A DNA stretch of 64,000 bases from contig CALZGM010000001.1 of the NCBI GenBank assembly GCA_945787015.1, positions 124,001-188,000 of the forward strand, read 5' to 3'. Shown in pieces: positions 1,965-23,752 of this stretch. Under the pieces are notes generated by a model. That model did no database searches. It was not told where the DNA came from and worked only from the letters and a program-made list of their open reading frames with translations. Within the stretch, counting starts at the first letter, position 1, and every line of letters starts with the position of its first letter. Position numbers and translations under genes: made by a program. This DNA comes from an uncultured Roseburia sp. GTDB lineage: Bacteria; Bacillota; Clostridia; Lachnospirales; Lachnospiraceae.

Positions 1965-1968
1965 AGAT

Positions 1969-3024
1969 ATGGCAGGTGAGAACAATTATTATCTGTCAGA
2001 TAAGAAGGAATATGTTGCAGTCGATGCTATGAAGCTGGTTGCCGCATATTTGAACATGAGTGTTCATTTCCTGATTTTTGAGGATATAAATAAAGAACTG
2101 AATTTTTGGTTTACACAGATTCTTTGCAGGCTGATGATTCCATTTTTCTTTTTGGCATCCGGCTACTTTGCGGCAAACAAACTGAATGACAAAGCGAAGA
2201 CAGGCACATATTTAAAGCGTATTCTTTTGATGTACCTTATCTATACGGTTATTTTTTTCCCGTTTGTGGTGCAGGAATACCAAAAGGCAGAGTACTCACT
2301 GGTGCAGGGAATTATTTTTTTCCTTAGAGATTTTTTCCTGGTGGGTTCTTATTTTCACTTATGGTATTTTTTGGCATTAATGGTCGCAGTAGCGTTTTTA
2401 TATGTAATGATAAATTGCTGGAAATTACAGGATAAGACGATTTTACTCATAACCGGTGTATTGTATTGTATCGGTACAATGGGGAATGCATACCGCAACG
2501 TCTGGGTACATATTCCGTTCATAAATGCTATTTTTTCTGCATATGAGACGGTATTCAAAACCACGGTAAATGGTATTTTCTTTGGCTCATTTTTGGTGGC
2601 AATTGGTTATTATGTACGTAAAAATAGTGATAAAATAAAATACAAAAGATATTGGGCATATGCGATTTTGTTTTTTCTACTTATGAATGTAGAGGAATAT
2701 TTTGCAAGAGCAATTACGCATCATAGTGGGCAGTCTATGTTGTTTAGTACACCGTTCGCTGCAACGGCGTTGTTTTTGATGGTCTGTTTTATTCGTCTTC
2801 CGAAAAAGCTTATCCCGGCAGGAGTCTTTTTGAGGAATATGTCGGTAATTGTGTATGGCTTCCATCTTTTTATCCACCTAAAATACGGGGCAGAGCTTTC
2901 CGGCTATGTTATGTATGGATTTGCATATTACCTGATGATGGCGAAGCGGGTTACGATATTAGCGGTTGCTATTGTAGGATTATCAAGACTAAAGCTCTTT
3001 TCGTGGCTGAAGTATTTATATTAA
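1969..3024 (+). CDS. Membrane acyltransferase, acyltransferase-3 family
   Basis: 351 aa, highly hydrophobic with about ten membrane segments. The N-terminal pattern DAMKLVAAYLNMSVHF aligns with the acyltransferase-3 motif (D..R..A...V...H), and IPFFFLASGYF follows near residue 75, typical of OatA-like O-acyltransferases that modify sugars on surface polymers. The conserved motif Arg is replaced by Lys. ATG 1969 was chosen because GGAGA lies just upstream; an ATG at 1924 would overlap the preceding gene. The gene sits between a GtrB-like transferase and a GtrII-type enzyme, so it probably O-acylates the same glycan. The acyl group and acceptor are unknown. Confidence 0.8.
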   Translation: MAGENNYYLSDKKEYVAVDAMKLVAAYLNMSVHFLIFEDINKELNFWFTQILCRLMIPFFFLASGYFAANKLNDKAKTGTYLKRILLMYLIYTVIFFPFVVQEYQKAEYSLVQGIIFFLRDFFLVGSYFHLWYFLALMVAVAFLYVMINCWKLQDKTILLITGVLYCIGTMGNAYRNVWVHIPFINAIFSAYETVFKTTVNGIFFGSFLVAIGYYVRKNSDKIKYKRYWAYAILFFLLMNVEEYFARAITHHSGQSMLFSTPFAATALFLMVCFIRLPKKLIPAGVFLRNMSVIVYGFHLFIHLKYGAELSGYVMYGFAYYLMMAKRVTILAVAIVGLSRLKLFSWLKYLY

Positions 3025-8634: not shown

Positions 8635-10452
8635 ATGCAGGCGGTTATATTAGCGGCAGGTATGGGGAAGCGTTTAAAGGATTTAACAAAAAATAACGCG
8701 AAATGTATGGTGGAAGTAAATGGGATCTCGCTGATAGAGAGAGCATTACATATTTTGGACAAAAAGAGTCTGACCAAAATTGTGATTGTAGTGGGATATG
8801 AAGCAGCACATCTAATGCAGTTTATTGAGAACCTTCATATTCAGACTCCGATTGTATTTATTAATAACGAAATATATGAAAAAACAAATAATATTTATTC
8901 TTTATTGATGGCAAAAGAGTATCTGATTGCAGAAGATACACTGCTGTTAGAATCCGACTTGATATTCGAAGAAAGTCTGATTGACTGTCTGTTGGAAGAT
9001 GAGCGTCCGACTTTAGCTTTGGTAGATAAGTTCGCAAGCTGGATGGATGGAACCTGTATGGAACTGGATGATGATGATTCTATCCATGATTTTATTCCGG
9101 GTAAGTATTTGAAGTTTGAAGAAAAAGAGCATTATTATAAGACGGTTAACATTTATAAGTTTAGTCGGAATTTCTCCGCAAACACCTATATTCCATTTCT
9201 GGAAGCGTATTTGAAAGCAATGGGTGTTAATGAGTATTATGAGTCCGTGATTAAACTGATTGCTTTGTTGGAAAACAGCGAAATTCGCGCAAAACGTTTG
9301 AATGGGCAGGTATGGTATGAAATTGATGATGTGCAGGACTTGGACATTGCCTCTACCTTGTTCCCAAATTCAAAGGAAGAACGCTATCAGGCATTAACTG
9401 CCCGTTATGGTGGATACTGGAGATATCCGAAAATGTTGGATTACTGCTATCTGGTAAACCCGTATTTTCCACCAAAGAAGATGCTGGATGAAATAAAATC
9501 AAATTTTGACGTGCTGATTGCACAATATCCATCCGGAATGAAGGTAAATTCACTTCTGGCTGCCAAAAATTTCTCGGTGAAGCAGGAACACATTTTGGTT
9601 GGAAATGGTGCAGCAGAGCTTATTAAAGGATTGGTAGAAAGTTTCGAAGGGAAAATGGGTATTATTACGCCAACCTTCGAAGAGTATCATCACAGATATC
9701 AAGGCGAAATCGTTGCATTTGACAGTGCAATGCAGGATTTTACATATACAGCAAAGGACTTGATGGACTTCTATACTTCCAATCCGGTGAATCAGCTGGT
9801 TATCATTAACCCGGACAACCCTTCCGGCAATTTCATGAGTCGTACAGAATTACTCGAATTGATTAACTGGTGTAAGGGAAAACAGATTCAGCTTATCATT
9901 GACGAAAGCTTTGTAGATTTTTCTGAAGATAATGCAGATTTAAAGAATACAGTTCTGACAGAAGAAATTTTAGCGTTGTATGATCAACTGTATGTTGTAA
10001 AGAGTATTTCTAAGTCATATGGTGTACCTGGGCTTCGCTTAGGAGTGCTTGCAAGCAGTAATGAGAAAATGATTGCAAGACTGAAAAAAGAGGTGGCTAT
10101 TTGGAATATCAATTCCTTTGGTGAATTTTATATGCAGATTGCAGAAAAGTACAAAAAGAATTATGTAAAGTCTTTGGAAAAGATTTGCGCAGCGCGAGCT
10201 GTTTTTATGGAGGAACTGCAGGAAATCCCGTTTATAAAAGTCTTTCCTTCACAGGCTAATTATGTCATGTGCGAACTGTTAAATGGCTATGAAAGCAGAA
10301 AAGTGGCAGAGGACTTGCTGGAACAGAATATTTTAATTAAGGATTTGACTTCAAAAATTGGAAACGGAAAGCAATATATCAGACTGGCGGTAAGAACTGT
10401 AGAGGATAACCGGATTTTAGTAGAAAAGCTAAAGAGAATGAAAACATTGTAG
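8635..10452 (+). CDS. Nucleotidyltransferase (LicC/PntC-like) fused to PLP aminotransferase (HisC-like)
   Basis: 605 aa bifunctional protein. Residues 1-240 are a sugar/alcohol-phosphate nucleotidyltransferase: AVILAAGMGKRL at the start, then LLLESDLIFEE, similar to choline-phosphate and aminoethylphosphonate cytidylyltransferases. Residues 255-605 are a fold-type-I aminotransferase of the HisC/CobD branch: NPYFPP at the start, GNGAAELI, INPDNPSGN, and SISKSYG with the PLP lysine at 460, then PGLRLGVL. One polypeptide could therefore make an amino-alcohol phosphate or phosphonate and activate it as a CDP ester. Such fusions are known for phosphonate (PntC-type) and related pathways, but no PEP mutase is visible here. 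The TagF-like domain at 6298 is a plausible user of the product. The true substrate is open. Confidence 0.85.
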   Translation: MQAVILAAGMGKRLKDLTKNNAKCMVEVNGISLIERALHILDKKSLTKIVIVVGYEAAHLMQFIENLHIQTPIVFINNEIYEKTNNIYSLLMAKEYLIAEDTLLLESDLIFEESLIDCLLEDERPTLALVDKFASWMDGTCMELDDDDSIHDFIPGKYLKFEEKEHYYKTVNIYKFSRNFSANTYIPFLEAYLKAMGVNEYYESVIKLIALLENSEIRAKRLNGQVWYEIDDVQDLDIASTLFPNSKEERYQALTARYGGYWRYPKMLDYCYLVNPYFPPKKMLDEIKSNFDVLIAQYPSGMKVNSLLAAKNFSVKQEHILVGNGAAELIKGLVESFEGKMGIITPTFEEYHHRYQGEIVAFDSAMQDFTYTAKDLMDFYTSNPVNQLVIINPDNPSGNFMSRTELLELINWCKGKQIQLIIDESFVDFSEDNADLKNTVLTEEILALYDQLYVVKSISKSYGVPGLRLGVLASSNEKMIARLKKEVAIWNINSFGEFYMQIAEKYKKNYVKSLEKICAARAVFMEELQEIPFIKVFPSQANYVMCELLNGYESRKVAEDLLEQNILIKDLTSKIGNGKQYIRLAVRTVEDNRILVEKLKRMKTL

Positions 10453-10497: not shown

Positions 10498-12237
10498 TTA
10501 GAAATAAGAATCCACAAGTGGAACAGTTGTAAAAATATCATTCCAATAAAGTTCTAGATAAGCATCATAATTACCTGTGTAGGTATAGAGCCGGTAAACA
10601 TTGCTTCCCGCGATGTCTTTGCCGTCATAGCGCTTGACGGAAGGATAATTTTCATCAAATGCGCGGATATATAGTGTACGTTCACGCTGTTCATCCTCTG
10701 CAAAATCATAAATCGTTTGACCAAGATAGTTGCTTTCACCTGTAGTAATCTGTGCTATCGTTGGTGCTAACTCATGCAATGAAATAGGTGCATTTGTCAT
10801 CTGCATCTGCTCGTGATGTTCATCGGGTTCTTTAATAAAGAAAATGCTTTGTGGATGTGCAATGGCTCCATGATCGGAGGTAATAATAATGGTTGAATTA
10901 TCATATGCTCCACAAGCTTTTAACTGTTGCAGGTATTCCTGTAGCATTTCCCAAATTCCCTTCATAGTAACGGTAAAGTCACCTGCATCAGCTACAGGCA
11001 GACAGTTTTCATCGTTGATTAATTCGTGAATCCCGTTTAGATGATAGAAGGAGACATATTTTTCTTCTTCGTTGACAGTAAGCCCTTTTTCAAGTAAATC
11101 GGCATAGAAATCCGGATTGGTGTAATTAATGGTATTGTCCGGATAGGTTACAATCGTGGCATACTGTGTATTGGGCACATCAAAGAATGGCTTAAAATAA
11201 TTTGGCATAAAGCGATAACAGGACATGGAGAGAAGCGTCGCATACAATTTTTCATAATGAATGTGGCGCTCATAAGATTGCGTTGTTAAGTTATCTATGC
11301 GGCCTCTTAAAAGAGACATGGGATGGCCTGCAGTAAAAAGCACAGGTTCTACAGCAAACAAATTTACTTGATATCCTGCTTCATGCAGAGAATCATAATA
11401 ATGAGTAGTGGCATCATTTGTCCAGCAATCAGAAATCCAATCATTAATGGAAAGAGTGTGATCATAGGCGTGCCCGGTTAAAATGTGGGCGATGGATGGA
11501 AAGGTGCCATAATAGTTACAGTCATTATTGTTGTAATAGGTAAAGTCAGATAAATAAGAAGCCATCTCCGGATAAACTTCTACAGCCGATTGGTAATGGA
11601 CATTTGAAACGGTATCAAGAATAAATACAATGACATTACTTTGCGAGGAAACGGTATATTGTTTCTCGCCGGATAAATAGTAATCCGATTCTACATATTC
11701 TGTTGCTTCCTTTGGGGCCGATAGCAATAAAGTGCTATAAGCAGTACCCTGCATGCCAATAAGAATAAGAGCAGTGAGAGAAAGCGTTTTTTTCCAGTTT
11801 GATTTACTTTTGATAATAATAGCTAGTGCGATTACCACAATCAGCAGCCAAATAAGGCTGTTTTTTAGAATCACTTCAAGAGAGGGTATATAGCCATCAG
11901 TAGTAGCACCAATCTGGTCTAAATTTTTGTTTAAAAACATGGTTTGGATATAGCCACAGATAGAAAGAATCCAAATAAGAGATAAAAACACTTTTTGTAC
12001 TAATTTTGGCAAAAAAAGAGCTAATAGTGTCATGATAACGGCAAACAAGGTGCCATATCCTAAGAATTTCCATCCGAATTCATCGAAAATCACACCAAAA
12101 GCCGTATAATTTGCAAAGAAAATTTCTGAGGGGGCAAAAATTCCAAACGAGAAAATGGGAAGATAAACGATGATAAATGTTAAAATAATGTTGAGAAAAG
12201 AAAAATTTTTTCTTAAATATAAAAAATAATTAGACAT
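10498..12237 (-). CDS. Membrane sulfatase / LTA-synthase-like phosphotransferase
   Basis: 579 aa. An N-terminal region of about five membrane segments (to about residue 165) is followed by an extracellular alkaline-phosphatase-superfamily domain. Visible features are FILDTVSNVHY (metal Asp) near 206, YYGTFPSIAHILTG near 240 with the catalytic Thr/Ser position, and TSDHGA near 460. LTA synthases and phosphoethanolamine or phosphoglycerol transferases share this layout and move alcohol phosphates from lipids to polymers or glycans outside the cell. It is the only reverse-strand gene in the first 37 kb and is divergent from the Dlt-like operon, suggesting co-regulation. Substrate is not determined. 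Confidence 0.82.
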   Translation of the reverse strand: MSNYFLYLRKNFSFLNIILTFIIVYLPIFSFGIFAPSEIFFANYTAFGVIFDEFGWKFLGYGTLFAVIMTLLALFLPKLVQKVFLSLIWILSICGYIQTMFLNKNLDQIGATTDGYIPSLEVILKNSLIWLLIVVIALAIIIKSKSNWKKTLSLTALILIGMQGTAYSTLLLSAPKEATEYVESDYYLSGEKQYTVSSQSNVIVFILDTVSNVHYQSAVEVYPEMASYLSDFTYYNNNDCNYYGTFPSIAHILTGHAYDHTLSINDWISDCWTNDATTHYYDSLHEAGYQVNLFAVEPVLFTAGHPMSLLRGRIDNLTTQSYERHIHYEKLYATLLSMSCYRFMPNYFKPFFDVPNTQYATIVTYPDNTINYTNPDFYADLLEKGLTVNEEEKYVSFYHLNGIHELINDENCLPVADAGDFTVTMKGIWEMLQEYLQQLKACGAYDNSTIIITSDHGAIAHPQSIFFIKEPDEHHEQMQMTNAPISLHELAPTIAQITTGESNYLGQTIYDFAEDEQRERTLYIRAFDENYPSVKRYDGKDIAGSNVYRLYTYTGNYDAYLELYWNDIFTTVPLVDSYF

Positions 12238-12325
12238 ATTTTTCTCCTGTGTTATAGTATAGCTATAGCTATTATAACATAAACAGAAAGGTTAGTGAGA
12301 ATTAATTTTACAGGGAAGGTTTTGT
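12238..12325. promoter_or_regulatory. Divergent promoter region with dyad TGTTATA/TATAACA
   Basis: An 88-bp gap between divergent genes contains TGTTATA (12250-12256) and TATAACA (12273-12279) as inverted repeats around an ATAGCTATAGCTAT core. The arms overlap plausible -10 hexamers for both directions: rc of AGTATA at 12257-12262 for the sulfatase, and TATAAC at 12273 for the operon. One regulator binding the dyad could control both units. No clear -35 boxes are seen. Confidence 0.5.
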
Positions 12326-13852
12326 ATGTATACAAATATTTTAGATATGTTAGAGGCATCATCAAAGCAGTATCCGGAACGGTTGGCATTTGGGGATGCA
12401 GAAAAGGACATTACATTTTGGGATTTAGAAACGAAGGCAAAGTCAGTAGGAACCTTATTAGCCGATGAGATTAAGATAGCAGAGCCGGTGGCTTTTTATA
12501 TGGATAAAAGTGTAGATGCGGTTTGTGGTATGTTTGGCGCGGTCTATGCCGGTGGCTTTTACTCGTTTTTAGATGTAAAGCAGCCACAGGCAAGAACAGA
12601 GAGCGTTTTAAGTATTCTGGAGCCGAAGGTAATTTTTACAGATGCGGAAAATTATGAAAAAGTCTCTCATTATGCAACCGACGCAAAAATTCTTATTTTA
12701 GCAGATACATTGGCAGAGAATATAACGGTGGATGAAGGAAAACTCCAAAAGATACGCAGGGAATTTGTAGATGTGAATCCGCTTTATGTGAATTTTACAA
12801 GCGGAAGTACCGGAGTGCCGAAAGGAGTTGTGGTAAGCCATCGTTCTGTGATTGAGTTTATCAGCTGCTTTACAAAAATCTTTGGAATTCGGGAAACAGA
12901 TATAATCGGAAATCAGGCGCCATTTGACTTCGACGTATCGGTTAAGGATATTTACAGCGGATTAATGACCGGAGCAAAGGTGCAGCTGATTCCAAAGAAG
13001 TATTTTAGTATGCCGACACAGCTGATGGATTATCTGACAGATAAAGAGGTTACGACTCTGATATGGGCAGTAAGTGCAATGTGTTTTGTTTCCGTCATGA
13101 AGGGATTTGAATATCGCCTGCCGGAAAAAATCCATACAGTTATGTTTAGTGGAGAGGTACTGCCAATTAAGCATTACAAAATCTGGAAACATTTTTTGCC
13201 GGCTGCAAAGTTTGTAAATTTGTATGGACCGACAGAGATTACCTGCAATTGCACGTATTATGTGCTGGATAGGGAATTCGAAGATACGGATGTGATTCCG
13301 ATGGGAAAAGCATTCCCAAACGAAAAGGTATTTTTGCTGGATGAAAATGATCAACTGGTAACAGAAAAGGACGTTCAGGGAGAAATCTGTGTGGGGGGTA
13401 CTGCACTTGCACTTGGTTACTACAAGGACAGAGAACGAACCAATCAGGTTTTTGTTCAGAATCCGCTGAATATGTCCTATAATGAGCCGATTTACCGTAC
13501 CGGAGATTTAGGAAAATATAATGAGGACGGGGATTTGGTATATGTATCCAGAAAGGACTTCCAGATTAAGCATTTAGGACACCGTATCGAGCTGGGAGAG
13601 ATTGAAGCGGTTGCGATGGCAAGGGAAGGCGTAACAAGAACCTGTTGTATTTATGACAGGGAAAAACAGCGGCTAATTCTTTTCTATACCGGAGAACGGG
13701 AAAAAATCAGCCTGATGAAGGAGTTGCGTACGGTTTTGGCTCCGTTTATGCTGCCGAATGCACTTGTTCCGGTAGAGGAAATGCCGCTTAATAAGAACGG
13801 AAAAATTGATAGAAATAAACTGCTGAGTGATTTCTTAAACGATAAAAAGTAA
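12326..13852 (+). CDS. DltA-like amino acid adenylation enzyme (carrier protein ligase)
   Basis: 508 aa adenylate-forming enzyme with the amino-acid adenylation core motifs: FTSGSTGVPKG near 158 (ATP loop), FDFDVSVKDIY (A4) near 197, NLYGPTEITC (A5) near 296, YRTGDLG (A7) near 391, FQIKHLGHRIELGEIE (A8) near 411, and NKNGKIDR with the catalytic Lys near 495. It has DltA length and lacks a fused carrier or condensation domain. It should activate an amino acid and load it on the carrier protein encoded at 15169. Unlike a standard dlt operon, a PLP decarboxylase follows, so D-alanine need not be the substrate. First gene of a long operon; GGGAAGG lies upstream of the ATG. Confidence 0.85.
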   Translation: MYTNILDMLEASSKQYPERLAFGDAEKDITFWDLETKAKSVGTLLADEIKIAEPVAFYMDKSVDAVCGMFGAVYAGGFYSFLDVKQPQARTESVLSILEPKVIFTDAENYEKVSHYATDAKILILADTLAENITVDEGKLQKIRREFVDVNPLYVNFTSGSTGVPKGVVVSHRSVIEFISCFTKIFGIRETDIIGNQAPFDFDVSVKDIYSGLMTGAKVQLIPKKYFSMPTQLMDYLTDKEVTTLIWAVSAMCFVSVMKGFEYRLPEKIHTVMFSGEVLPIKHYKIWKHFLPAAKFVNLYGPTEITCNCTYYVLDREFEDTDVIPMGKAFPNEKVFLLDENDQLVTEKDVQGEICVGGTALALGYYKDRERTNQVFVQNPLNMSYNEPIYRTGDLGKYNEDGDLVYVSRKDFQIKHLGHRIELGEIEAVAMAREGVTRTCCIYDREKQRLILFYTGEREKISLMKELRTVLAPFMLPNALVPVEEMPLNKNGKIDRNKLLSDFLNDKK

Positions 13853-13874
13853 GGATATAGAATAAGAGGGAAAG

Positions 13875-15110
13875 ATGACAGAGAAAGAGTTACAAACGAT
13901 TGCAGAGGAATATGGGACACCTTCCTTTGTGTTTGATACGCAGAGCCTGAAAAAACGTATGGCATCCATTCGGGAGATTGTAGGAGATACGGTGCACTTG
14001 TGCTATTCCATTAAGGCAAATCCGTTTTTGATTCCTGCAATGTTGCAATGTGTGGAAAAGCTGGAAGTCTGCAGCCCGGGAGAGTTAGACATCTGTAAAC
14101 AACAGAAGGTGGCAGGAGAGAGAATTATTTATTCCGGTGTGCAAAAAAATGAAATTGATATTAAGGCAGCAGTAGAATACAGTGCCGGAATTTATACGGC
14201 TGAATCCGTGTTGCAGTTTGAATTGCTGAATAAATGCGCAATTGCGCATGGAAAAGTCATTCCGGTGTTGCTTCGATTAAATGCCGGCAGCCAGTTTGGA
14301 ATGTCAAAGGAAGATTTCTGTTATTTGGTAGAAAACAGAGAGCAGTTTTTCGGAATTAAGATTATTGGCATTCATTATTTTGCAGGGACACAGAGAAAGA
14401 AGCTGGCAGAACAGGAAAAAGAATTAGAGATGCTTTTGCAATTGATTGCTGAGCTAAAAGAAAAGTATGGTTTCGAAGTAGAAAATCTGGAATATGGTCC
14501 GGGACTTCCTGTTCCTTATTTTTCAACGGATGATTTTGCCGATACCCTAAAGCCTGTAAAAGAATTGGCACCGATGTTACGAAAAGTGGCGGGACAAGTA
14601 CATCTGACGGTAGAAATGGGACGTTTTTATGTGTCTGAATGTGGATATTATCTGACAAAGGTAATGGATGTAAAAGCGAATAAAGGAACCAATTATGCCA
14701 TTGTGGATGGTGGTATGAATCATTTGAATTATTTGGGGCAGATGATGGGAATGAAGGTCCCGGTGATAAAACACCTTGCAATGGAAGAATCCAAAGCGGG
14801 CTTATTTAAGGATGCAACGGCAATTGGTCAGATTTCTGCGGAATGTGAAGCAAACTGGAGCCTTTGCGGAAGCTTATGTACCACAGCGGATGTGATTGTA
14901 AGACAAGCAGAATTTACTAATTTACAAATTGGGGATGTTTTGGCATTTTCCAATATTGGAGCATATTCTGTAACGGAGGGAATTCATTTGTTCTTAAGCA
15001 GAACTATGCCTAGAATTCTTTTGTATCATGGCGAAGGAAAGGCTCAGCTGGTTAGAGATTTTATGGAAGCAAGCAGCTTAAACTGCATACAGGAAATGCC
15101 TATTTACTAG
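13875..15110 (+). CDS. Fold-type-III PLP-dependent decarboxylase (LysA/BtrK-like)
   Basis: 411 aa alanine-racemase-fold decarboxylase. Visible are YSIKANP with the PLP lysine at residue 47, an EVCSPGEL strand, GIHYFAGTQ near 165 (family HxxSG-like loop), a Gly-rich LEYGPGLPVPYF segment, TVEMGRFYV, and CGSLCTTADV, equivalent to the active-site Cys..D motif of diaminopimelate and ornithine decarboxylases. Between an adenylation enzyme and a carrier protein, the closest functional parallel I know is BtrK, which decarboxylates a glutamyl group held on a carrier protein; related ligase/decarboxylase/carrier trios occur in exosortase-linked polysaccharide loci. It could instead make a free amino acid for the DltA-like enzyme. 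The lysine-biosynthesis role is unlikely here. Confidence 0.82.
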   Translation: MTEKELQTIAEEYGTPSFVFDTQSLKKRMASIREIVGDTVHLCYSIKANPFLIPAMLQCVEKLEVCSPGELDICKQQKVAGERIIYSGVQKNEIDIKAAVEYSAGIYTAESVLQFELLNKCAIAHGKVIPVLLRLNAGSQFGMSKEDFCYLVENREQFFGIKIIGIHYFAGTQRKKLAEQEKELEMLLQLIAELKEKYGFEVENLEYGPGLPVPYFSTDDFADTLKPVKELAPMLRKVAGQVHLTVEMGRFYVSECGYYLTKVMDVKANKGTNYAIVDGGMNHLNYLGQMMGMKVPVIKHLAMEESKAGLFKDATAIGQISAECEANWSLCGSLCTTADVIVRQAEFTNLQIGDVLAFSNIGAYSVTEGIHLFLSRTMPRILLYHGEGKAQLVRDFMEASSLNCIQEMPIY

Positions 15111-15168
15111 AAGTGTTTTTTGCGGTAGAATACATTTAGCACATAACTATGGGAGGATGAATAAAATT

Positions 15169-15393
15169 ATGGAACGATTGATTGAATTATTAATGGAAAT
15201 TAAGGAAGACATTGATTATGAAAATGAAACAGCGCTTATTGATGACGAGTTACTGGATTCATTTGATATTTTACAGATTATCAGTGCCATTGATGATGAA
15301 TTTGATGTTGCGATTCCGGCAGCAATGATTATCCCGCAGAATTTTAATAGTGTAGAAGCGTTGTGGAATATGGTGCAGGAGTTAATGGAATGA
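15169..15393 (+). CDS. Acyl/peptidyl carrier protein (DltC-like)
   Basis: 74 aa acidic helical protein with the phosphopantetheine site DELLDSFDILQI; the Ser is at about residue 30. The in-frame ATG at 15157 directly abuts GGGAGG, leaving no spacing, so ATG 15169 twelve bases after GGGAGG is the likelier start. The stop overlaps the MBOAT start in an ATGA, indicating translational coupling. It should carry the aminoacyl group made by the DltA-like enzyme and deliver it to the membrane acyltransferase. It may also be the platform on which the adjacent decarboxylase acts. Confidence 0.88.
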   Translation: MERLIELLMEIKEDIDYENETALIDDELLDSFDILQIISAIDDEFDVAIPAAMIIPQNFNSVEALWNMVQELME

Positions 15394-16964
15394 TAAATTT
15401 TTACTCAATTCAGTTTGTTACGTTTTTAGTTATTGCGTTAGCATGCTATTATACAATTAGCAAAAAGAAACAGTGGATATGTTTGTTAGTTGCAAGTGCT
15501 GTGTTCTATTATTATACAGGTGTAACAAATTTTGCTTTTTTGCTGGTTACAGGATTTACAACATGGATTGGAGCAAAACAATTATCGCTTGAATCACAGA
15601 GAATTGCAGAACTTCGTAATGATAAGACCATTGATAAAGAAGAAAAGAAAGTAAAAAAAGAAGTAATCTTAAAAAAACGCCGCACAATTATGTGGGGCGT
15701 TCTTTTGGTGAATTTCGGAGTGCTGGCATGCCTGAAGTATTTAGAACCGATTCTCAAAGGACTTGGAGTGATTGATGATAAGAATGTACTGGGATTATTG
15801 CTGCCTCTTGGAATTTCGTTCTATACCTTTCAGTCTGTGGGATATTTACTGGATATTTATTTTGAAAAATATGAAGCAGAGCATAATTTTGCGAAATATA
15901 TGTTGTTTGTGTCCTATTTCCCTCAGATGATTCAGGGACCGATTAACCGTTATGATGCACTTGGAACCCAGTTTAAAGAGCAGCATGTCTGGAAGGATGA
16001 AGCTGCAACAAAGGCGTTGTATCGAATCGGGTACGGACTGATGAAAAAGTATGCGATTGCTAATATTTTAGCAGTTGCGATTGCAAAAACGTTTGATACT
16101 CCCGCAACGGATTTTTCGGGAGTAATTGTTGTGTTTGCAATATTATTGTATTCCGCCCAACAGTATGCGGATTTTTCCGGTGGAATTGACATGGTTTTAG
16201 GTGTATCCGAACTGTTTGGAATAAAAATGGCGGAAAACTTTAGGCAACCTTATTTTTCAACCTCTCTGGCCGACTTTTGGCGTAGATGGCATATCTCTTT
16301 GGGAAAATGGATGAGAGATTATGTGTTTTATCCGTTCGCACTTACAAAACCAATGAAAAAATTTGGAAAATGGGCAAATCAGAAGCTTGGAAAACATCTG
16401 GGAAGAGTCCTGCCTGCAGCAATTGGCAATCTTGTGGTATTTTTCATCGTAGGTATTTGGCATGGAGCAGAATGGCATTATGTGGTATGGGGACTGTACA
16501 ACGGCATGGTAATTGCGTTAAGTGATATTTTAACACCGGTATATGAGAAGATGATAAAACTGTGCCATATTAATAAAAATGCAGCATGGTATCATGTATT
16601 TCAGATTATCCGTACCTTTATTGTGGTGAATATCGGCTGGTATTTTGACCGAATTACAAACGTGGTAGTAGCCTGCTATAGTCTGAAGAAATCCATTTTT
16701 AAATTTAATCCGGGAGCATTTTCACAGGAATATGCGATTATTTTTGATGGTGTGAAAGAGTATGCAGGACTAATGGCGATTATTGGATGTCTGATCGTTC
16801 TGTTTGTAAGCATTCTGGAAGAGAATAAAATCAGTGTAAGAGATAGGCTTTATAAGTCACCTTTATTGATTCGATGGGGTGTATATACATTTGTGATAGT
16901 TCTAATTCTGTTTTCTTGTACCAGAGTAGGAGAAACGGGAGGTTTTATGTATGCGAATTTTTAG
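15390..16964 (+). CDS. MBOAT O-acyltransferase, DltB-like, first copy
   Basis: 524 aa polytopic membrane acyltransferase. It has the MBOAT hallmarks FYTFQSVGYLLDIYF, FPQMIQGPI, FWRRWHISLGKWMRDYV and GIWHGAEWHYVVWGLYNG with the catalytic His. The start at 15390 overlaps the carrier-protein stop. The extreme C-terminus is FMYANF, fitting an FxYxxF pattern; in the Dlt pathway the separate DltX peptide ends with such a motif and is reported to act as acyl relay through the Tyr, so here the relay may be built into the MBOAT (Tyr521). It should move the acyl group from the carrier protein across the membrane to the SGNH partners encoded next. Confidence 0.87.
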   Translation: MINFYSIQFVTFLVIALACYYTISKKKQWICLLVASAVFYYYTGVTNFAFLLVTGFTTWIGAKQLSLESQRIAELRNDKTIDKEEKKVKKEVILKKRRTIMWGVLLVNFGVLACLKYLEPILKGLGVIDDKNVLGLLLPLGISFYTFQSVGYLLDIYFEKYEAEHNFAKYMLFVSYFPQMIQGPINRYDALGTQFKEQHVWKDEAATKALYRIGYGLMKKYAIANILAVAIAKTFDTPATDFSGVIVVFAILLYSAQQYADFSGGIDMVLGVSELFGIKMAENFRQPYFSTSLADFWRRWHISLGKWMRDYVFYPFALTKPMKKFGKWANQKLGKHLGRVLPAAIGNLVVFFIVGIWHGAEWHYVVWGLYNGMVIALSDILTPVYEKMIKLCHINKNAAWYHVFQIIRTFIVVNIGWYFDRITNVVVACYSLKKSIFKFNPGAFSQEYAIIFDGVKEYAGLMAIIGCLIVLFVSILEENKISVRDRLYKSPLLIRWGVYTFVIVLILFSCTRVGETGGFMYANF

Positions 16965-18051
16965 TTGGATTAAAAAACTAAGATATTTGCTGGTTTTAGT
17001 GGCAGTGAATATGCTACTCTCCTTTCTGATTGAACCTGCAAGCGGTGCGAGTGGAAGAATGTGGAGTGGGTATTATGATGAGCAAAATCTGGATATGATT
17101 TTTGTGGGCAATTCTGTGTGCCAGCAGGGGTTTATTCCGGATATTTTTAATGAAAAACTGAGTGTGAAAGCTTATAATATGGGAACGCCTTCACAGGCAG
17201 TACCACAAAGTATGAGGGCAATCGAGGTAGCATTGGAGGAACATGATATCAAAACGGTTGTATACGCAATGGGATTTTCCAGTTTGAAATATGAACCGAT
17301 ACCGGAAGCGGAATTGACCTTTGAGAGTGCCAGAGCACGCCAAAAAGGAGGCATTCAGGGAGCTCTTGCAACTCTATCTTACATTTATTCTCCGGATGTG
17401 GTTGCGAAAGAAAACTCTGTCAACTTTTTATTCCCATGGCTGTATAACTATGAAGACTATTTCACGTCAACTATGTTAAAAAATGCAACAGAGAAATTAT
17501 GCAAATGGGAGAAGCGCCTGAGATTAGGTGATTATGATGAAACAGAGGGATTAAAAAAGGGCTTTCGAAATGATGACACAAGAGTTATAAATTATGACAA
17601 TATTTGGGAAGATAATTCTTATAGTCGTTACGAGCCATATTTTAATGCTGAAATGCTAGCTGATTTTGAAGAACTTTTGGCTTTTTGCAAAGAACGGGAT
17701 GTTGACTTAATCGTATTGAATACACCGCATCCGGCTTTTGATGTGGTTAGCTGCTATGAATACTATGAAAAAAATCAGGAGCAGCTAACAGAGATTTGTG
17801 ACAGATACGGCGTAGACTATTACGATTTTAGTCTGATAAAACCTGAGATTTATGAAGTGCAGGATAAGAACTTTGTTGATTATGAGCACTTAAACAGGGC
17901 AGGCGCCAAAGAATTTTGCGAAAAATTGTGTGATTTTCTAAAACTAAGAGCAAGTGGTGAAGATATGAGTCAATATTTTTACTCTGTAGAAGAATTTTTA
18001 GAGATTCACGAAGATTTGCTGAATGAGTGGAAACAATATGAGAATTTTTAA
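16951..18051 (+). CDS. DltD-like SGNH acyltransferase/esterase, paralogue 1
   Basis: 366 aa with one N-terminal membrane anchor (about residues 10-30) and an extracellular SGNH-type domain. FVGNSVCQQGF near residue 50 supplies the nucleophile Ser block, YNMGTPSQAVPQS near 72 the Gly/Asn blocks, VLNTPHP near 255 and DYEHLNRAGA near 310 the Asp..His pair. The gene starts inside the end of the MBOAT gene. By analogy with DltD it should pass the acyl group from the MBOAT to the extracellular polymer. About half of its residues match the next gene, so the pair is a tandem duplication, not one split gene. Confidence 0.83.
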   Translation: MRIFSWIKKLRYLLVLVAVNMLLSFLIEPASGASGRMWSGYYDEQNLDMIFVGNSVCQQGFIPDIFNEKLSVKAYNMGTPSQAVPQSMRAIEVALEEHDIKTVVYAMGFSSLKYEPIPEAELTFESARARQKGGIQGALATLSYIYSPDVVAKENSVNFLFPWLYNYEDYFTSTMLKNATEKLCKWEKRLRLGDYDETEGLKKGFRNDDTRVINYDNIWEDNSYSRYEPYFNAEMLADFEELLAFCKERDVDLIVLNTPHPAFDVVSCYEYYEKNQEQLTEICDRYGVDYYDFSLIKPEIYEVQDKNFVDYEHLNRAGAKEFCEKLCDFLKLRASGEDMSQYFYSVEEFLEIHEDLLNEWKQYENF

Positions 18052-19132
18052 ACGGCTAAAGAAAGGCAGATATTTTTTATTTTTTTTGTTGATTAATATT
18101 ATGTTGAGCGTTTTGCTTGAACCGGCAAGAGGTGCCAGTCAGATTATGTGGCGAGGATATTACGCAGAAGAAGAACTGGACACCATTTTTGTTGGTTCTT
18201 CGTTGTGCCAGGGAACTTTTGACCCATCTATATTTAATGAGTGTATGGGAGTAAAATCTTATAATATGGGAACACCTTTGCAGGCAATGCCCCAGACCAT
18301 ACGGGCAGTAGAAGAGGCATTAGAAGATCATGAAATAAAAACCGTTATTTTTGGAATGGGATTTTCTACATTAAAGCAGAATGTGGTAGAGGAAGCGGAG
18401 TTAACTTTTGAAAAAGCAAGAATCCGGGAGAAAGATGGGATAAAAGGAGTTCTTGAAAGTATTTCTTATTTATATTCAGACAAAGTGAGAGAAGAAGAAA
18501 AGTCAATAAATTATTTCTTTTCGTGGCTATATAATCGGGGGGAACTGTCAAGTGCCGATATTATGGAGAATATTTCTTTAAAAATCTGGCAGATGAAGGA
18601 AAAGTTTTTTTATAAAAATGATACGATTATGCCAACAGAAAAAGGGTATCAGAACCATGAAGGAGATGTTTTAAACTATGATAATCGTTGGGAATTGAAT
18701 ACCTATCGATATTATGAAGCGGATTTTAATGAGGAAATACTGGGTGCCTTTGAAAAACTATTGCAATTATGCAGTCAGCGGGGGATTGATTTTATTGTTA
18801 TAAATACACCACATCCATATTTTGATGTTGTGGTTTGTTATGAATTCTATGAGAGAAATCAGAATGAGGTAAAAGCACTTTGTCAGAAGTATGGAGCTGA
18901 TTATTATGATTTTAATCTGGCAAAACCGGAAATTTTTGAAACCAGACCGGAATACTATAGTGACTATGAACACATGAATAAAGAAGGATCTCAAGTATTT
19001 TGCAAGGAGTTGTGCAATTTCCTGCTTCAGAGAGAGGCGGGAGTGAATGTAGAAGAATGTTTTTACTCAGTAAGCGAGTTTTTGGAATTACATGCGGATG
19101 AATTAGAGGCATGGAAGTCATATTATTGGTAA
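18038..19132 (+). CDS. DltD-like SGNH acyltransferase/esterase, paralogue 2
   Basis: 364 aa. Same layout as its neighbour: membrane anchor, then FVGSSLCQGTF with the catalytic Ser, YNMGTPLQAMPQT, VINTPHP and DYEHMNKEGS with the Asp..His pair. ATG 18038 lies within the last codons of paralogue 1, indicating coupled translation. Both copies keep all catalytic blocks, so both are probably active and may act on different acceptor positions or polymers. No signal for secretion other than the uncleaved anchor is seen. Confidence 0.82.
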   Translation: MRIFKRLKKGRYFLFFLLINIMLSVLLEPARGASQIMWRGYYAEEELDTIFVGSSLCQGTFDPSIFNECMGVKSYNMGTPLQAMPQTIRAVEEALEDHEIKTVIFGMGFSTLKQNVVEEAELTFEKARIREKDGIKGVLESISYLYSDKVREEEKSINYFFSWLYNRGELSSADIMENISLKIWQMKEKFFYKNDTIMPTEKGYQNHEGDVLNYDNRWELNTYRYYEADFNEEILGAFEKLLQLCSQRGIDFIVINTPHPYFDVVVCYEFYERNQNEVKALCQKYGADYYDFNLAKPEIFETRPEYYSDYEHMNKEGSQVFCKELCNFLLQREAGVNVEECFYSVSEFLELHADELEAWKSYYW

Positions 19133-19142
19133 GAGAGGGACA

Positions 19143-20111
19143 ATGAACACATACATCGTAAAACAAAAAGATATGAATAGCAGAATGAAATCACGTTCCG
19201 GTGGAGTTTTTGCAGCAATTTCGGATGCGGTTTTAGAAGCAGGTGGAGTTGTTTATGGCTGCGCTTTGGATGAGGAGTTTCATGCCTATCATCGTAAAGC
19301 CGAGACAAAGGAAGAACGAGACCTTTTTCGTGGCTCGAAGTATGTGCAGAGCGATATGAAGGATGCCATGAAGCAGGCAATGGAGGATTTAAAAGACGGA
19401 AGAACGGTTCTTTTTTCCGGAACACCCTGCCAAATTGCCGGAATGAAAGCAATCTGCCCGGCGGCATATCAGGACAAGTTGTTATGTATAGACATTGTGT
19501 GTCACGGCGTGCCAAGCCCGGCTGTCTGGGATTCTTATAAAGAATACATGCAAAAAAAGTATCATGGGAAAATCACAGCGGTCGACTTTCGAAATAAACG
19601 TAATCACGGCTGGTGGGAGCATATTGAATCGGTAAAGATTCATGGAATCGAGGTGGATAGCCAGATTTATAAGAATCTTTTTTACGAGCATAATGTCCTC
19701 AGAGAATGTTGTTACGAATGCCCATATAAGAGTCTTGAGAGACAGGGAGATATTACGATTGCGGATGCTTGGGGCATTGCAAAGGCTGCACCGGATTTTG
19801 ATGATAATCACGGTGTGTCGTTGGTACTGTCAAATACCTGCAAAGGCCAGGAATGGCTTGAAAAAGCATTTGAGGACTGTGATTACAGAGAGTGCGATAT
19901 TGCGGACTACATGCAGGAACCTTTTATCCGAAGTTTTCCGAAACCGGATAATTATGAGGAATTCTGGCAGGATTATTTTTCAAAGGATTTCGATAAAATT
20001 GTGAAGGATAAATATGAGGATTCTTTGAAAATGCATTTGAAATGGCGGATAAAACGTATGGTAAAGGCAGTCGTACCGCAGACACTGATTAATAAGCTAC
20101 GTGGACGTTAA
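19143..20111 (+). CDS. FrhB-like (coenzyme F420 hydrogenase beta subunit family) oxidoreductase
   Basis: 322 aa protein of the FrhB/FdhB-C family often seen in polysaccharide clusters of anaerobes. Motifs: RSGGVFAAISDA near 20, GCALDEEF, FSGTPCQIAGMK near 97, CIDIVCHGVPSP near 118, DFRNKRNHGWW near 143, CCYECPYKS near 187 and GDITIADAWG near 200; the cysteines could hold an iron-sulfur cluster with flavin. The family usually carries a two-cluster ferredoxin domain at its own N-terminus, which is missing here and is encoded instead by the next gene. It presumably reduces or oxidises a sugar or acyl intermediate; the reaction is unknown. Confidence 0.8.
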   Translation: MNTYIVKQKDMNSRMKSRSGGVFAAISDAVLEAGGVVYGCALDEEFHAYHRKAETKEERDLFRGSKYVQSDMKDAMKQAMEDLKDGRTVLFSGTPCQIAGMKAICPAAYQDKLLCIDIVCHGVPSPAVWDSYKEYMQKKYHGKITAVDFRNKRNHGWWEHIESVKIHGIEVDSQIYKNLFYEHNVLRECCYECPYKSLERQGDITIADAWGIAKAAPDFDDNHGVSLVLSNTCKGQEWLEKAFEDCDYRECDIADYMQEPFIRSFPKPDNYEEFWQDYFSKDFDKIVKDKYEDSLKMHLKWRIKRMVKAVVPQTLINKLRGR

Positions 20112-21313: not shown

Positions 21314-22795
21314 ATGTTATTCAATTCATATAGTTTTTTAGTGTTTTTCCCCATTGTAGTGTTTGCTTATTTTCTGATACCAAAGAAAGTTCGATACATT
21401 TGGTTGTTAGTAGCAAGCTATTATTTTTACATGGGATGGAATGCAAAGTATGCATTGCTTTTATTTGCATCTACAATTATTACATATTTAAGCGGACTTC
21501 TTCTGTCAGCAAAGAAAATAAGACACGTAACGAAATGGAAAAAGTGCATTGTGGCGGTTAGTTTTATTTCAAATCTGTCTATCTTATTTTTCTTTAAATA
21601 CTTTGATTTTATGATTGTAAATATCAATCGTATTTTAGGTGCTTTACATATTAAGATGTTGACACCGCAGTTTGATGTGTTACTTCCGGTTGGAATTTCG
21701 TTTTATATTTTTCAGGCACTGAGTTATACCATGGATGTATATCGTGGAGAGGTAGAAGCAGAAAAAAATGTGCTGAAATATGCGCTTTTTGTTTCTTTTT
21801 TTCCACAGTTGGTGGCCGGGCCGATTGAACGTTCGAAGAATCTGTTAAAACAGGTAAATGAAGAACATAATTTTAGTTATGAGCGCATGTGTCAGGGCCT
21901 TATGCTCATGACATGGGGTTATTTTTTAAAGCTTGTGATAGCAGACCGAATCGCCATTTTTGTAGACCATGCTTATAGTACGCAAACGCTGTATGATGGT
22001 CGATACGTGCTGCTTGCAAGTATCCTGTTTGCGATTCAGATATATTGTGATTTTGCAGGGTATTCTACTATTGCCATAGGTGCGGCAAAAGTGCTTGGGT
22101 TTGAACTCATGGAGAATTTTAACTGTCCGTACTTTGCGACTACCGTAGCGGAGTTTTGGCGGAGGTGGCATATATCTTTATCAACGTGGTTTCGAGATTA
22201 TCTTTATATTCCACTGGGCGGAAATCGAAAGGGTACAATCAGAAAGTATGTTAACACAATGGTTGTGTTTTTGGTAAGCGGTTTATGGCATGGAGCAAGC
22301 TGGACTTATGTAGTCTGGGGCGGATTGAATGGTCTTTATCAGGTGATTGGCAGCATACTGGCACCAATGAAGAAGAAAATTGCAGTACGGTTTCCAAAAC
22401 TGGATAGAAGTTATGGTATAAGAGCGGTTCGTATGGCAGTTACTTTTGTATTGGTTGATTTCACATGGATTTTTTTCAGGGCAGATAATTTTGCACAGGT
22501 GAAAAGTGTGCTGTCCAGAATGATTCATATGAATCAGCCGGATTTACTTGCAAACGGTACGCTTTTTGATTTGGGCCTAAATAAACAGAACTTTATTGTG
22601 CTTGGAATTGCATTATTGATTCTGCTTGGAGCAGATATCGCAAAGTACCACCAGATAAAACTGCATGAGGTAATTTTAGGCTGGAATATCGTACTTCGAT
22701 GGAGTACGATTATGGCAGCCATAACGGGAATTCTCGTGTTTGGTATCTGGGGAAGCGGTTATCAGGCAACAAACTTTATTTATTTTCAGTTTTGA
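21314..22795 (+). CDS. MBOAT O-acyltransferase, second copy
   Basis: 493 aa polytopic protein resembling AlgI/DltB: FYIFQALSYTMDVYRG, FFPQLVAGPIER, FWRRWHISLSTWFRDYLYIPLGGNR split by a loop, then SGLWHGASWTYVVWGGLNG with the catalytic His. It ends in FIYFQF, again an FxYxxF pattern with Tyr490. The immediately following SGNH protein makes an MBOAT/SGNH pair such as those that O-acetylate alginate, peptidoglycan or teichoic acid. No second carrier protein is encoded, so it may use acetyl-CoA or share the carrier at 15169. GGAGAAGG precedes the ATG. Confidence 0.86.
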   Translation: MLFNSYSFLVFFPIVVFAYFLIPKKVRYIWLLVASYYFYMGWNAKYALLLFASTIITYLSGLLLSAKKIRHVTKWKKCIVAVSFISNLSILFFFKYFDFMIVNINRILGALHIKMLTPQFDVLLPVGISFYIFQALSYTMDVYRGEVEAEKNVLKYALFVSFFPQLVAGPIERSKNLLKQVNEEHNFSYERMCQGLMLMTWGYFLKLVIADRIAIFVDHAYSTQTLYDGRYVLLASILFAIQIYCDFAGYSTIAIGAAKVLGFELMENFNCPYFATTVAEFWRRWHISLSTWFRDYLYIPLGGNRKGTIRKYVNTMVVFLVSGLWHGASWTYVVWGGLNGLYQVIGSILAPMKKKIAVRFPKLDRSYGIRAVRMAVTFVLVDFTWIFFRADNFAQVKSVLSRMIHMNQPDLLANGTLFDLGLNKQNFIVLGIALLILLGADIAKYHQIKLHEVILGWNIVLRWSTIMAAITGILVFGIWGSGYQATNFIYFQF

Positions 22796-22810
22796 CCTAG
22801 GAGGAGCATT

Positions 22811-23752
22811 TTGAACATACATATACAAAGGATAACCAAAGTAATTGCTTTTTTGGGTTTACTATGCATATTAGTATATGGGTTAACAATAGCATTATTG
22901 CCAAAGATACCGGATTTTTATCAGGAGGATGAATGGGATGTGGTGTTTTTTGGGACAAGTGCAAGTTACTGCTCTTTTAATCCGGCAGTTTTTGATGAGT
23001 ATGGTTTGAAATCCTATAATAGGGGACGCCAACAGCAGCCAATCAATTATACTTATTATTATATAAAAGATGCATTGGAAACAAGTGATATTGACGTAGT
23101 AGTGTTGGAAACCCTTGCACTTACCTATTGGGAAGGGTATGAAGTGTTTACAGAAGAAGGTGTGCGGGACAGTTCTTTAAATGATATGCGTTATTCAAAG
23201 ACAAAGGTGGAGGCAATCCTGGATTGCGTACCGAGAGAAAAGCAGATTGGATATTTATTTCCATTAGATAAGTATCATTCAAATTGGGAGAAATTGGATG
23301 ATCAGTCATTTCCAACTTTATGGGAAGCACTCTGTTCGCGATATGATAAAGAAAGTTCTGAAAGAGGATTTTTCCCATGGGATTCTATCCAAGAGTGTTT
23401 TTATTTATCAAAAGAGGCACTTGATAGTGAGGTAAGACGATATATATATGATTTCAATATGAAATATTTGAATCTTATCAAAGAGGAGTGCAAAGAGCAG
23501 GGAGCAAAGCTGGTACTTGTACGTACCCCGCTGCCATGCGAAGACTATATCGTAGAAATAATGAATACTCTTGAAGAATGGGCTAAGGCAAATGACGTTG
23601 AATTTATTAATTATATGGATATGACAGAAGAAATAGGAATGAATTGGAAACAGGACAGTCTTGATGGAGGAAGCCACCTGAATGTATATGGGGCAGAGAA
23701 GGTATCGGGGCATCTTGCAAAACATCTGAAAGAACAATATTTCAATCAATAA
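22811..23752 (+). CDS. SGNH/DltD-like extracellular acyltransferase partner of the second MBOAT
   Basis: 313 aa. One N-terminal membrane segment (about 10-30), then FFGTSASYCSFNP near 53 with the nucleophile Ser, YNRGRQQQPINY, VLVRTPLP near 235 and DGGSHLNVYGAEK near 288 giving the Asp..His pair. The start is TTG 22811, nine bases after AGGAGGAG. It is only distantly similar to the SGNH pair at 16951 and 18038, so the two MBOAT/SGNH modules were probably acquired separately and modify different groups. Confidence 0.8.
   Translation: MNIHIQRITKVIAFLGLLCILVYGLTIALLPKIPDFYQEDEWDVVFFGTSASYCSFNPAVFDEYGLKSYNRGRQQQPINYTYYYIKDALETSDIDVVVLETLALTYWEGYEVFTEEGVRDSSLNDMRYSKTKVEAILDCVPREKQIGYLFPLDKYHSNWEKLDDQSFPTLWEALCSRYDKESSERGFFPWDSIQECFYLSKEALDSEVRRYIYDFNMKYLNLIKEECKEQGAKLVLVRTPLPCEDYIVEIMNTLEEWAKANDVEFINYMDMTEEIGMNWKQDSLDGGSHLNVYGAEKVSGHLAKHLKEQYFNQ

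Follow-up and report, generated by a model that had tools for sequence, protein, structure and literature searches.

A carrier-fed, Dlt-like cassette with a BtrK-like decarboxylase in Roseburia and its probable role in omega-amino acyl decoration of the envelope

A stretch of 64,000 nucleotides from an uncultured Roseburia sp. (GenBank assembly GCA_945787015.1, contig CALZGM010000001.1, positions 124,001 to 188,000; hereafter the window), whose source contig (C1) belongs to a 3.3 Mb genome in 59 contigs, carries at positions 12326-19132 six plus-strand genes encoding, in this order, an adenylation enzyme (A), a fold-type-III pyridoxal phosphate (PLP) decarboxylase (DC), a carrier protein (CP), an MBOAT acyltransferase and two SGNH-type proteins (SGNH-1 and SGNH-2). 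The order and strand of these genes, as given in a preliminary description of the window, were confirmed by the open reading frames (ORFs), and the identities of A, DC, CP and MBOAT are supported by Pfam. Judging from the sequences, this cassette probably makes and exports an omega-amino acyl decoration for an envelope polymer. More tentatively, we put forward as a possible specific form of it an envelope 'beta-alanylation', in which Asp would be decarboxylated while on the carrier and an MBOAT with a built-in shuttle would esterify the resulting beta-alanine to a phosphopolymer made by TagF, using a DltA-side ligase and a BtrK-side decarboxylase, in gut and rumen Bacillota and in Treponema. 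Each module is of a known kind, and their combination is undescribed in the literature searched: neither searches aimed at the cassette or its product nor searches on its separate parts turned up, in the open-access literature, a Dlt-like cassette that includes a decarboxylase, most subscription journals and preprints lying outside that scope.

We propose that the substrate of A is an acidic amino acid, L-Asp more probably than L-Glu, which is adenylated at the side-chain carboxyl while Lys207 holds the alpha-carboxylate, and that A then loads the residue onto the phosphopantetheine of CP. DC would engage the free alpha-amine in an external aldimine and remove the alpha-carboxyl on the carrier, yielding beta-alanyl-CP, or gamma-aminobutyryl-CP if the residue were Glu and the product gamma-aminobutyric acid (GABA). 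From CP, MBOAT would pass the acyl group on to a tyrosine on the outer side, that of the FMYANF at its own C-terminus, whereupon an SGNH serine would take it and esterify a hydroxyl of an envelope phospho- or glycopolymer, and the decoration would add positive charge, like D-alanylation. All four steps we infer from relatives, while the gene content, motifs and co-occurrence reported below are observations. By a chemical argument the route from Asp to beta-alanine is perhaps twice as likely as that from Glu to GABA. GABA thioesters cyclise to pyrrolidone, and beta-alanine is favoured because no additional ligase, such as could supply a protecting group against cyclisation, recurs in the flanks of 24 loci compared (L011, L012 and L023 omitted as near-copies). 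For one macrolactam, loading of a stand-alone acyl carrier protein (ACP), decarboxylation and then addition of an L-Ala protecting group against cyclisation have been proposed (PMC10662134).

The decarboxylase recurs together with the carrier and MBOAT in other genomes, a co-occurrence that the preliminary description had suggested checking. We compared 27 loci, namely that of the window, 23 from a scan with six short peptide patterns of the window DC, which biases this first set to close relatives, and three chosen by the A motif DFDVSVKD; L066 and L067 were left out as duplicates of contigs already included. A adjoins DC in 26 of the 27 loci (the exception, L006, is ended by its contig edge), CP lies near DC in 25, and MBOAT with SGNH in 23, an SGNH gene being present at each of the 23 loci with MBOAT. 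At the 23 DC-scan loci a profile search of the ORFs recovered A at 22, CP at 21, and MBOAT and SGNH at 20. MBOAT and SGNH were undetected at L004, L006, L020 and L063; the L004 genome has an MBOAT of 68% identity beyond the flank examined and the L020 genome a single MBOAT of 31% identity, each with an SGNH gene. Starting from A, a search of 398 genomes of the phylum with DFDVSVKD returned three genomes besides the window's own, and in all three DC and CP adjoin A, MBOAT and SGNH being present as well in two. The genes are found in the order A-DC-CP-MBOAT-SGNH (the window included), MBOAT-SGNH-A-DC-CP, SGNH-MBOAT-A-DC-CP (L009, L018), DC-MBOAT-SGNH-CP-A (L013-L016) and A-DC-CP-SGNH-MBOAT (L021), and at L024 as A-DC-CP with the MBOAT/SGNH pair on the opposite strand. 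The hosts belong to the Lachnospiraceae (L023 among them; L011 is Lachnospira multipara), the Erysipelotrichaceae, two more families of the host phylum (G469, G430) and Treponema (L021, L024, L026), and the closest relative found is L004, a Roseburia metagenome-assembled genome (MAG) in which A is 84% and DC 71% identical.

The loci are not independent, since L012 nearly duplicates L011 and several MAGs resemble one another closely. The host genome has six MBOAT genes, and by simple arithmetic about 2.5% of its positions are no more than 6 kb from one of them; because the adjacency repeats across families against this background we conclude that the gene linkage is not a matter of chance. The cassette is sporadic, given that only three of 397 genomes of the family matched a strict DC pattern and only four of 398 genomes of the phylum the A pattern, the window's own genome being included in each count and both counts being obtained with exact peptide patterns, which undercount it. 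We also considered GQMMGMKVP as an invariant family mark of DC and rejected it: present in 24 of 27 loci, it is itself among the scan patterns and is missing from the three loci chosen on A, so that its apparent invariance is a selection effect.

In NCBIfam the window A matched an amino-acid adenylation domain first (317 bits) and then two DltA models, in both cases below the cut-off (271.4 versus 476 and 261.7 versus 559.85 bits). In a tree of 18 rows it splits from the VinN-type and exosortase ligases at 100/99 support and groups with the DltA-like L073 and an enzyme resembling nonribosomal peptide synthetases (NRPS); because long branches join DltA, the NRPS-like row and the A family, its place on the DltA side also rests on motifs common to the family and L073 (NQAPF-FD-SV-D, GEVLP-like). 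L073 falls itself just short of the DltA cut-off (544.7 versus 559.85 bits), and as it alone among 41 genomes qualified at E 1e-120 in a search for DltA references, the comparison of pockets with DltA is one with a single sequence and a review. With positions numbered by GrsA via alignment, the pocket of the 11 family rows compared reads D V K [IVT] [MIL] S [LV] C N, that of L073 D L L I L C L V A, and that of the VinN type, whose loop is one residue shorter, D Y Y P T T Q K R. The D-Ala contacts published for DltA are Leu198, Met200 and Cys268/269 (PMC11253843); in the aligned columns the family has V, K and S against L, L and C in L073, and Met200 would correspond to the column of Lys207. 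DFDVSVKD occurs in all 26 A proteins, 23 of which were not chosen by it, and so does FSGE, in which Ser replaces the D-Ala-selecting Cys. Thus, A as a plain DltA was rejected by pocket and by score, and A as a VinN-type or exosortase ligase by lineage and loop. Against the possibility of strict D-Ala loading, which the preliminary description had raised against its own proposal, the alignment shows a pocket unlike that for D-Ala and with an invariant lysine suited to an acidic substrate. The listed positions hold no other charged residues than D203 and the catalytic A10 lysine, which makes Lys207 the residue suited to a substrate carboxylate, and most likely it meets one.

Lys207 cannot distinguish the alpha-carboxylate of an acid activated at its side chain from the side chain of an acid activated at its alpha-carboxyl. 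In the second case A would load an acidic residue, for example Glu, by the alpha-carboxyl, and the PLP protein might, for instance, racemise it on the carrier, so that an alpha-linked acidic residue would end up on the polymer. We regard this as improbable. A does keep D203, which in DltA is the ligand of the alpha-amine (PMC11253843), and the full-length beta13-beta14 loop of alpha-activating enzymes; however, C335 is present in 24 of 24 DC proteins, both decarboxylase domains are kept, and the alanine racemase model is reached at 1e-3 by only three of 23 DC members, weakly, despite a match of the window DC to Pfam Ala_racemase_N at 35.4 bits.

DC consists, according to Pfam, of Orn_Arg_deC_N and a C-terminal sheet domain, and in a tree of 20 rows its family forms a single clade (97/100). 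In the PDB, a profile built from 23 of its members found BtrK best (217.6 bits), followed by 6knh (180.9) and a diaminopimelate (DAP) decarboxylase (169.5); we take 6knh to be SbnH, and its file says probable DAP decarboxylase. The PLP lysine K47, His167, Glu247 and C335, presumably the catalytic cysteine of the decarboxylase, are invariant in 24 of 24 DC proteins of the first set. All 27 DC proteins have C[TS]xxD, and none has RPxxY at the position of that motif in LysA, where RPxxY and a CE motif bind DAP; DC is BtrK-like in this respect, which speaks against its acting on free DAP, a further possibility that the preliminary description had named. CTxxD or CSxxD without RP is shared by the DC family, BtrK, two VinO-type rows, an exosortase-type row and two other plasmid-borne trio rows, the VinN/VinO labels of L069 and L072 being our own assignment from adjoining methylaspartate mutase and polyketide synthase genes. 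The precedent that the preliminary description had invoked is sound, as BtrK decarboxylates Glu on its carrier, in the form of BtrI-S-Glu (PMC7857480), and the decarboxylases VinO and FlvO serve the 3-Amp and beta-Ala starters of macrolactams (PMC10662134). DC might instead make free beta-Ala from Asp, or GABA from Glu, for A to load afterwards, which would give the same end product in the other order. This sequence of events seems unlikely, if not remarkably so: A and DC are separate proteins and other decarboxylases of the DC fold use free amino acids, but BtrK, the nearest solved relative of DC, uses carrier-bound Glu (both PMC7857480), and beta-Ala and GABA would offer the invariant Lys207 no carboxylate, no acidic pocket partner except D203 being listed.

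Several observations weigh against the proposed route. A lysine at this place would also fit, by the specificity code, Glu activated at its alpha-carboxyl, which would leave no alpha-carboxyl free; for the codes DAKDLGVVDK and DPRHFVMRAK no paper was found in the open-access literature, and the likeness to Glu and aminoadipate pockets is a tentative analogy. The loop of A is full-length (YGP[TS]EITCNC in 26 of 26, where VinN-type rows show a gap and K/R) and hence lacks the mark of beta-amino-acid activation in VinN, which is K330/R331 with a shortened beta13-beta14 loop (PMC11253843). CP was undetected beside L007 and L008, and MBOAT is absent beside four loci. In a single-sequence search the window DC scored 108.1 bits with DAP decarboxylase and 107.1 with BtrK, and its top NCBIfam match is the LysA model TIGR01048 (187.7 bits, cut-off 297.9). 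The PLP-stacking His167 is Gln in L063, L064 and L065, the three loci chosen on A. Finally, 6knh, acting on an N-citryl substrate, also has C[TS]xxD, so that this motif is not carrier-specific and marks decarboxylases of acyl-modified substrates, not of carriers alone.

The LysA match, together with the presence of DltA and DltB models among the best family matches, could also be taken to indicate a plain D-alanylation cassette beside which an unrelated decarboxylase of lysine biosynthesis lies by chance. We consider this very improbable in view of the A-DC linkage in varied gene orders, the altered D-Ala pocket residues, and a far better LysA match elsewhere in the genome, namely the host's own LysA, which has NLMRPAVYG and CENCD and, at 294.9 bits, falls only narrowly below the cut-off. 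DC as a plain LysA within the operon was rejected on the same comparison, being below the cut-off and lacking both RPxxY and CE. A canonical dlt operon elsewhere in the host genome was also considered and rejected, no DltA match there exceeding the cut-off; the best other A-domain (296.2 bits) lies beside ORFs that, by names read from the sequence, are FkbH-, acyl-CoA dehydrogenase- and transporter-like.

Turning to the transfer part, the Pfam PP-binding match of CP barely passes (21.2 versus 20.8 bits), and Ser35 is invariant in 22 of 22 carriers. In the PDB a profile of the MBOATs matched, at E 0.01, no chains other than those of DltB (138 bits), and the window MBOAT scored 176.1 bits with the DltB model TIGR04091 (cut-off 375); the profile match ends at position 407 of 519, as added C-terminal helices would lead one to expect. 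H301, H358 and Y521 are invariant in 16 aligned MBOATs, and a C-terminal Y-x-x-[F/Y] is found in all 29 MBOATs of at least 400 amino acids from the cassette loci, L044 and L047, a count that includes some outside any cassette, with the strict FxYxxF in 18. In described systems MBOAT passes the acyl group to the Tyr of a C-terminal FXYXXF and thence to the Ser of its SGNH partner; in Dlt, where a carrier serves as donor, it is DltX that bears this motif, whereas in other MBOAT-SGNH pathways MBOAT bears it and the donor, with no carrier, is evidently acyl-CoA (PMC12148441). The cassette, having both CP and an FMYANF on MBOAT, therefore joins a carrier donor to a fused shuttle. As to a separate DltX, no gap in the cassette of the window exceeds 46 bases, the rest of the genome not having been searched for one. 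As neither the D-Ala pocket nor a separate DltX was found, we assign the cassette to a Dlt-like, carrier-fed MBOAT-SGNH kind and not to Dlt.

In a tree of 33 MBOAT rows, 19 form a clade (100/98), 18 of them beside a trio of A, DC and CP and the nineteenth, L044, in the trio-bearing L004 genome. A second class lies beside trios in L005, L009, L017, L018 and L064 and apart from a trio in the window's own genome (C2) and in the L020 genome (L047), and trios seem, from their placement, to be paired with two MBOAT classes. A label test on this tree was weak, 48 of 500 shuffles being as low, in part owing to a definition of 'near' by distance alone, which takes in second MBOATs. For SGNH-1 and SGNH-2 Pfam gave no match at 1e-3, DltD included, and an SGNH profile gave only chance-level matches in the PDB; the assignment comes from Ser55 and Asp310xxHis313, invariant in all 14 relatives chosen for alignment, four of which have weak Lipase_GDSL_2 matches (E up to 0.1). 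By their likeness to each other the two are a tandem duplicate.

Comparison with known systems places these modules in context. Like Dlt, the cassette has a DltA-side adenylation enzyme, a free carrier, a DltB-like MBOAT core and an SGNH-type transferase, in keeping with the Dlt-like transfer cassette of the preliminary description. A refinement of that description concerns the shuttle, whose Tyr is fused to MBOAT and not, as in Dlt, on a DltX microprotein. The cassette further differs in its added decarboxylase, in SGNH proteins that Pfam does not call DltD, and in the pocket, with Lys for Leu (L073) or Met (published DltA, PMC11253843) and Ser for Cys. With the BtrK/BtrI pair it shares the nearest solved structure to the DC profile, a carrier partner and the motifs CTxxD, GTQ and QFGM; in contrast to BtrK, the DC family is short by about 14 residues ahead of QFGM, near the active site, a difference that could open the site to the carrier arm. 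The butirosin loading enzyme is an ATP-grasp ligase. BtrK itself serves antibiotic (butirosin) biosynthesis (PMC7857480). VinN/VinO/VinL and FlvO resemble the cassette in that adenylation enzyme, carrier and decarboxylase yield a beta-amino acyl starter (PMC10662134), but the VinN ligase is of another lineage, with the shortened loop and K330/R331, and the product feeds a polyketide synthase. Ligase, decarboxylase and ACP trios do exist at exosortase loci, as had been stated, a Sphingomonas example being at hand, and TIGR03099 is the second-best NCBIfam model of the window DC. However, the window proteins fall far below the cut-offs of the exosortase A models TIGR03098/TIGR03099 (184.9 of 592.35 and 173 of 478.45 bits), the ligase there is of a lineage other than A, and no MBOAT is annotated within 7 kb in the single Sphingomonas example examined. 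PatA/PatB-type MBOAT-SGNH pairs share the C-terminal FXYXXF on MBOAT and the SGNH partner, but have no carrier and evidently use acyl-CoA (PMC12148441), whereas the cassette has a carrier trio. Two further plasmid trios were noted. L071 (Paracoccus aminophilus pAMI5) has a ligase-carrier-decarboxylase trio with GT61 glycosyltransferases, an SGNH hydrolase and a serine acetyltransferase as neighbours, and may represent a version for surface polymers that arose independently; L070 (Streptomyces sp. NBC_01208 plasmid) has a run of decarboxylase, holo-ACP synthase, hotdog protein, ligase and carrier beside ectoine genes.

With regard to the acceptor, GtrA, GT2 and GtrII genes lie near the cassette in the window, as do, at 6298-8391, a gene for a fusion of YidC/60KD_IMP with a TagF-like CDP-glycerol glycerophosphotransferase domain and, at 33011-34087, an LCP-family gene. 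A polyol-phosphate polymer is a fair guess. The product of 8635-10452, in which a nucleotidyltransferase is joined with a class I/II aminotransferase-like domain, may make a CDP-activated amino-alcohol. In BLAST comparisons that did not distinguish the matched domain, YidC-TagF relatives were found near 6 of 24 loci, two of them in Treponema, and relatives of the nucleotidyltransferase near 5 of 24; most loci have no YidC-TagF relative inside the flanks examined. The Treponema loci show that the acceptor is not necessarily a wall polymer of the Gram-positive type, and here the interpretation in the preliminary description has to be widened, while its Dlt-like hardware and BtrK-like decarboxylase, and an adenylation pocket unlike that for D-Ala, are supported by the sequence. 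Treponema is not known to have classical wall teichoic acid. That the decarboxylated acyl group goes instead to a glycolipid or a protein, or leaves as a small molecule, would agree with the Treponema loci and with a sequence that does not reveal the acceptor; we nevertheless judge it a rather remote alternative to an envelope polymer, given the GT2, GtrII, YidC-TagF and LCP-family genes at the window locus and the YidC-TagF relatives elsewhere.

The features of the cassette are collected in Table 1. The first two intergenic spacings are 22 and 46 bases, with overlaps thereafter. MBOAT most likely starts at ATG 15390, which overlaps the CP stop codon as ATGA, rather than at the listed GTG 15363. 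A promoter consensus scan of the region was uninformative, with 39 sites against 26.2 expected.

Table 1. Positions in the window of the cassette genes and of motifs within and upstream of them (aa, amino acids)
Feature	Coordinates	Strand	Remarks
Promoter-like site TAGACA-16-TATAGT with TG, 5' of cassette	12231..12258	+	consensus match only, weak
A, AMP-forming adenylation enzyme, DltA/NRPS side, 508 aa	12326..13852	+	Pfam AMP-binding, NCBIfam, tree
DFDVSVKD codons in A	12926..12949	+	K207 = 12944-12946, Leu in DltA-like L073
DC, fold-type-III PLP decarboxylase, BtrK-like, 411 aa	13875..15110	+	K47 = 14013-14015; C335 = 14877-14879
CP, acyl/peptidyl carrier, 78 aa	15157..15393	+	Ser35 = 15259-15261, likely 4'-phosphopantetheine site
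MBOAT acyltransferase, 524 aa, DltB-like core and extra C-terminal part	15390..16964	+	Pfam MBOAT, profile
FMYANF (Tyr521), MBOAT C-terminus, FXYXXF acyl-shuttle hexapeptide	16944..16961	+	
SGNH-1, SGNH-type membrane-anchored acyltransferase	16951..18051	+	Ser55, Asp310, His313
SGNH-2, SGNH-type acyltransferase	18023..19132	+	51% identity to SGNH-1

Other genes of the window were recorded alongside. A second MBOAT, of another class than that of the cassette and ending in FIYFQF, lies at 21314-23752 with an SGNH-like gene just downstream and no carrier trio, and an AT3 acyltransferase at 1924-3024, so that with the cassette the locus holds three acylation systems. An FrhB/FdhB-like protein (19143-20111) starts 10 bases past the cassette, and a relative of it also lies 3' of the trio at L004, a locus that lacks MBOAT and SGNH. 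At 34201-37794 a 1197-aa protein with only a weak HetE-N match (25.8 bits) is encoded, and its gene is adjoined by a PD-(D/E)XK transposase-like gene (37866-38738).

If the proposed route is true, bacteria would be able to give surface polymers an amine charge in a second manner, via a non-alpha amino acid, and beta- or gamma-amino esters should be less labile than the D-alanyl ester. Decarboxylation on a carrier, so far a feature of antibiotic biosynthesis, would then also serve the cell envelope, and the cassette would provide a carrier-fed MBOAT that needs no DltX.

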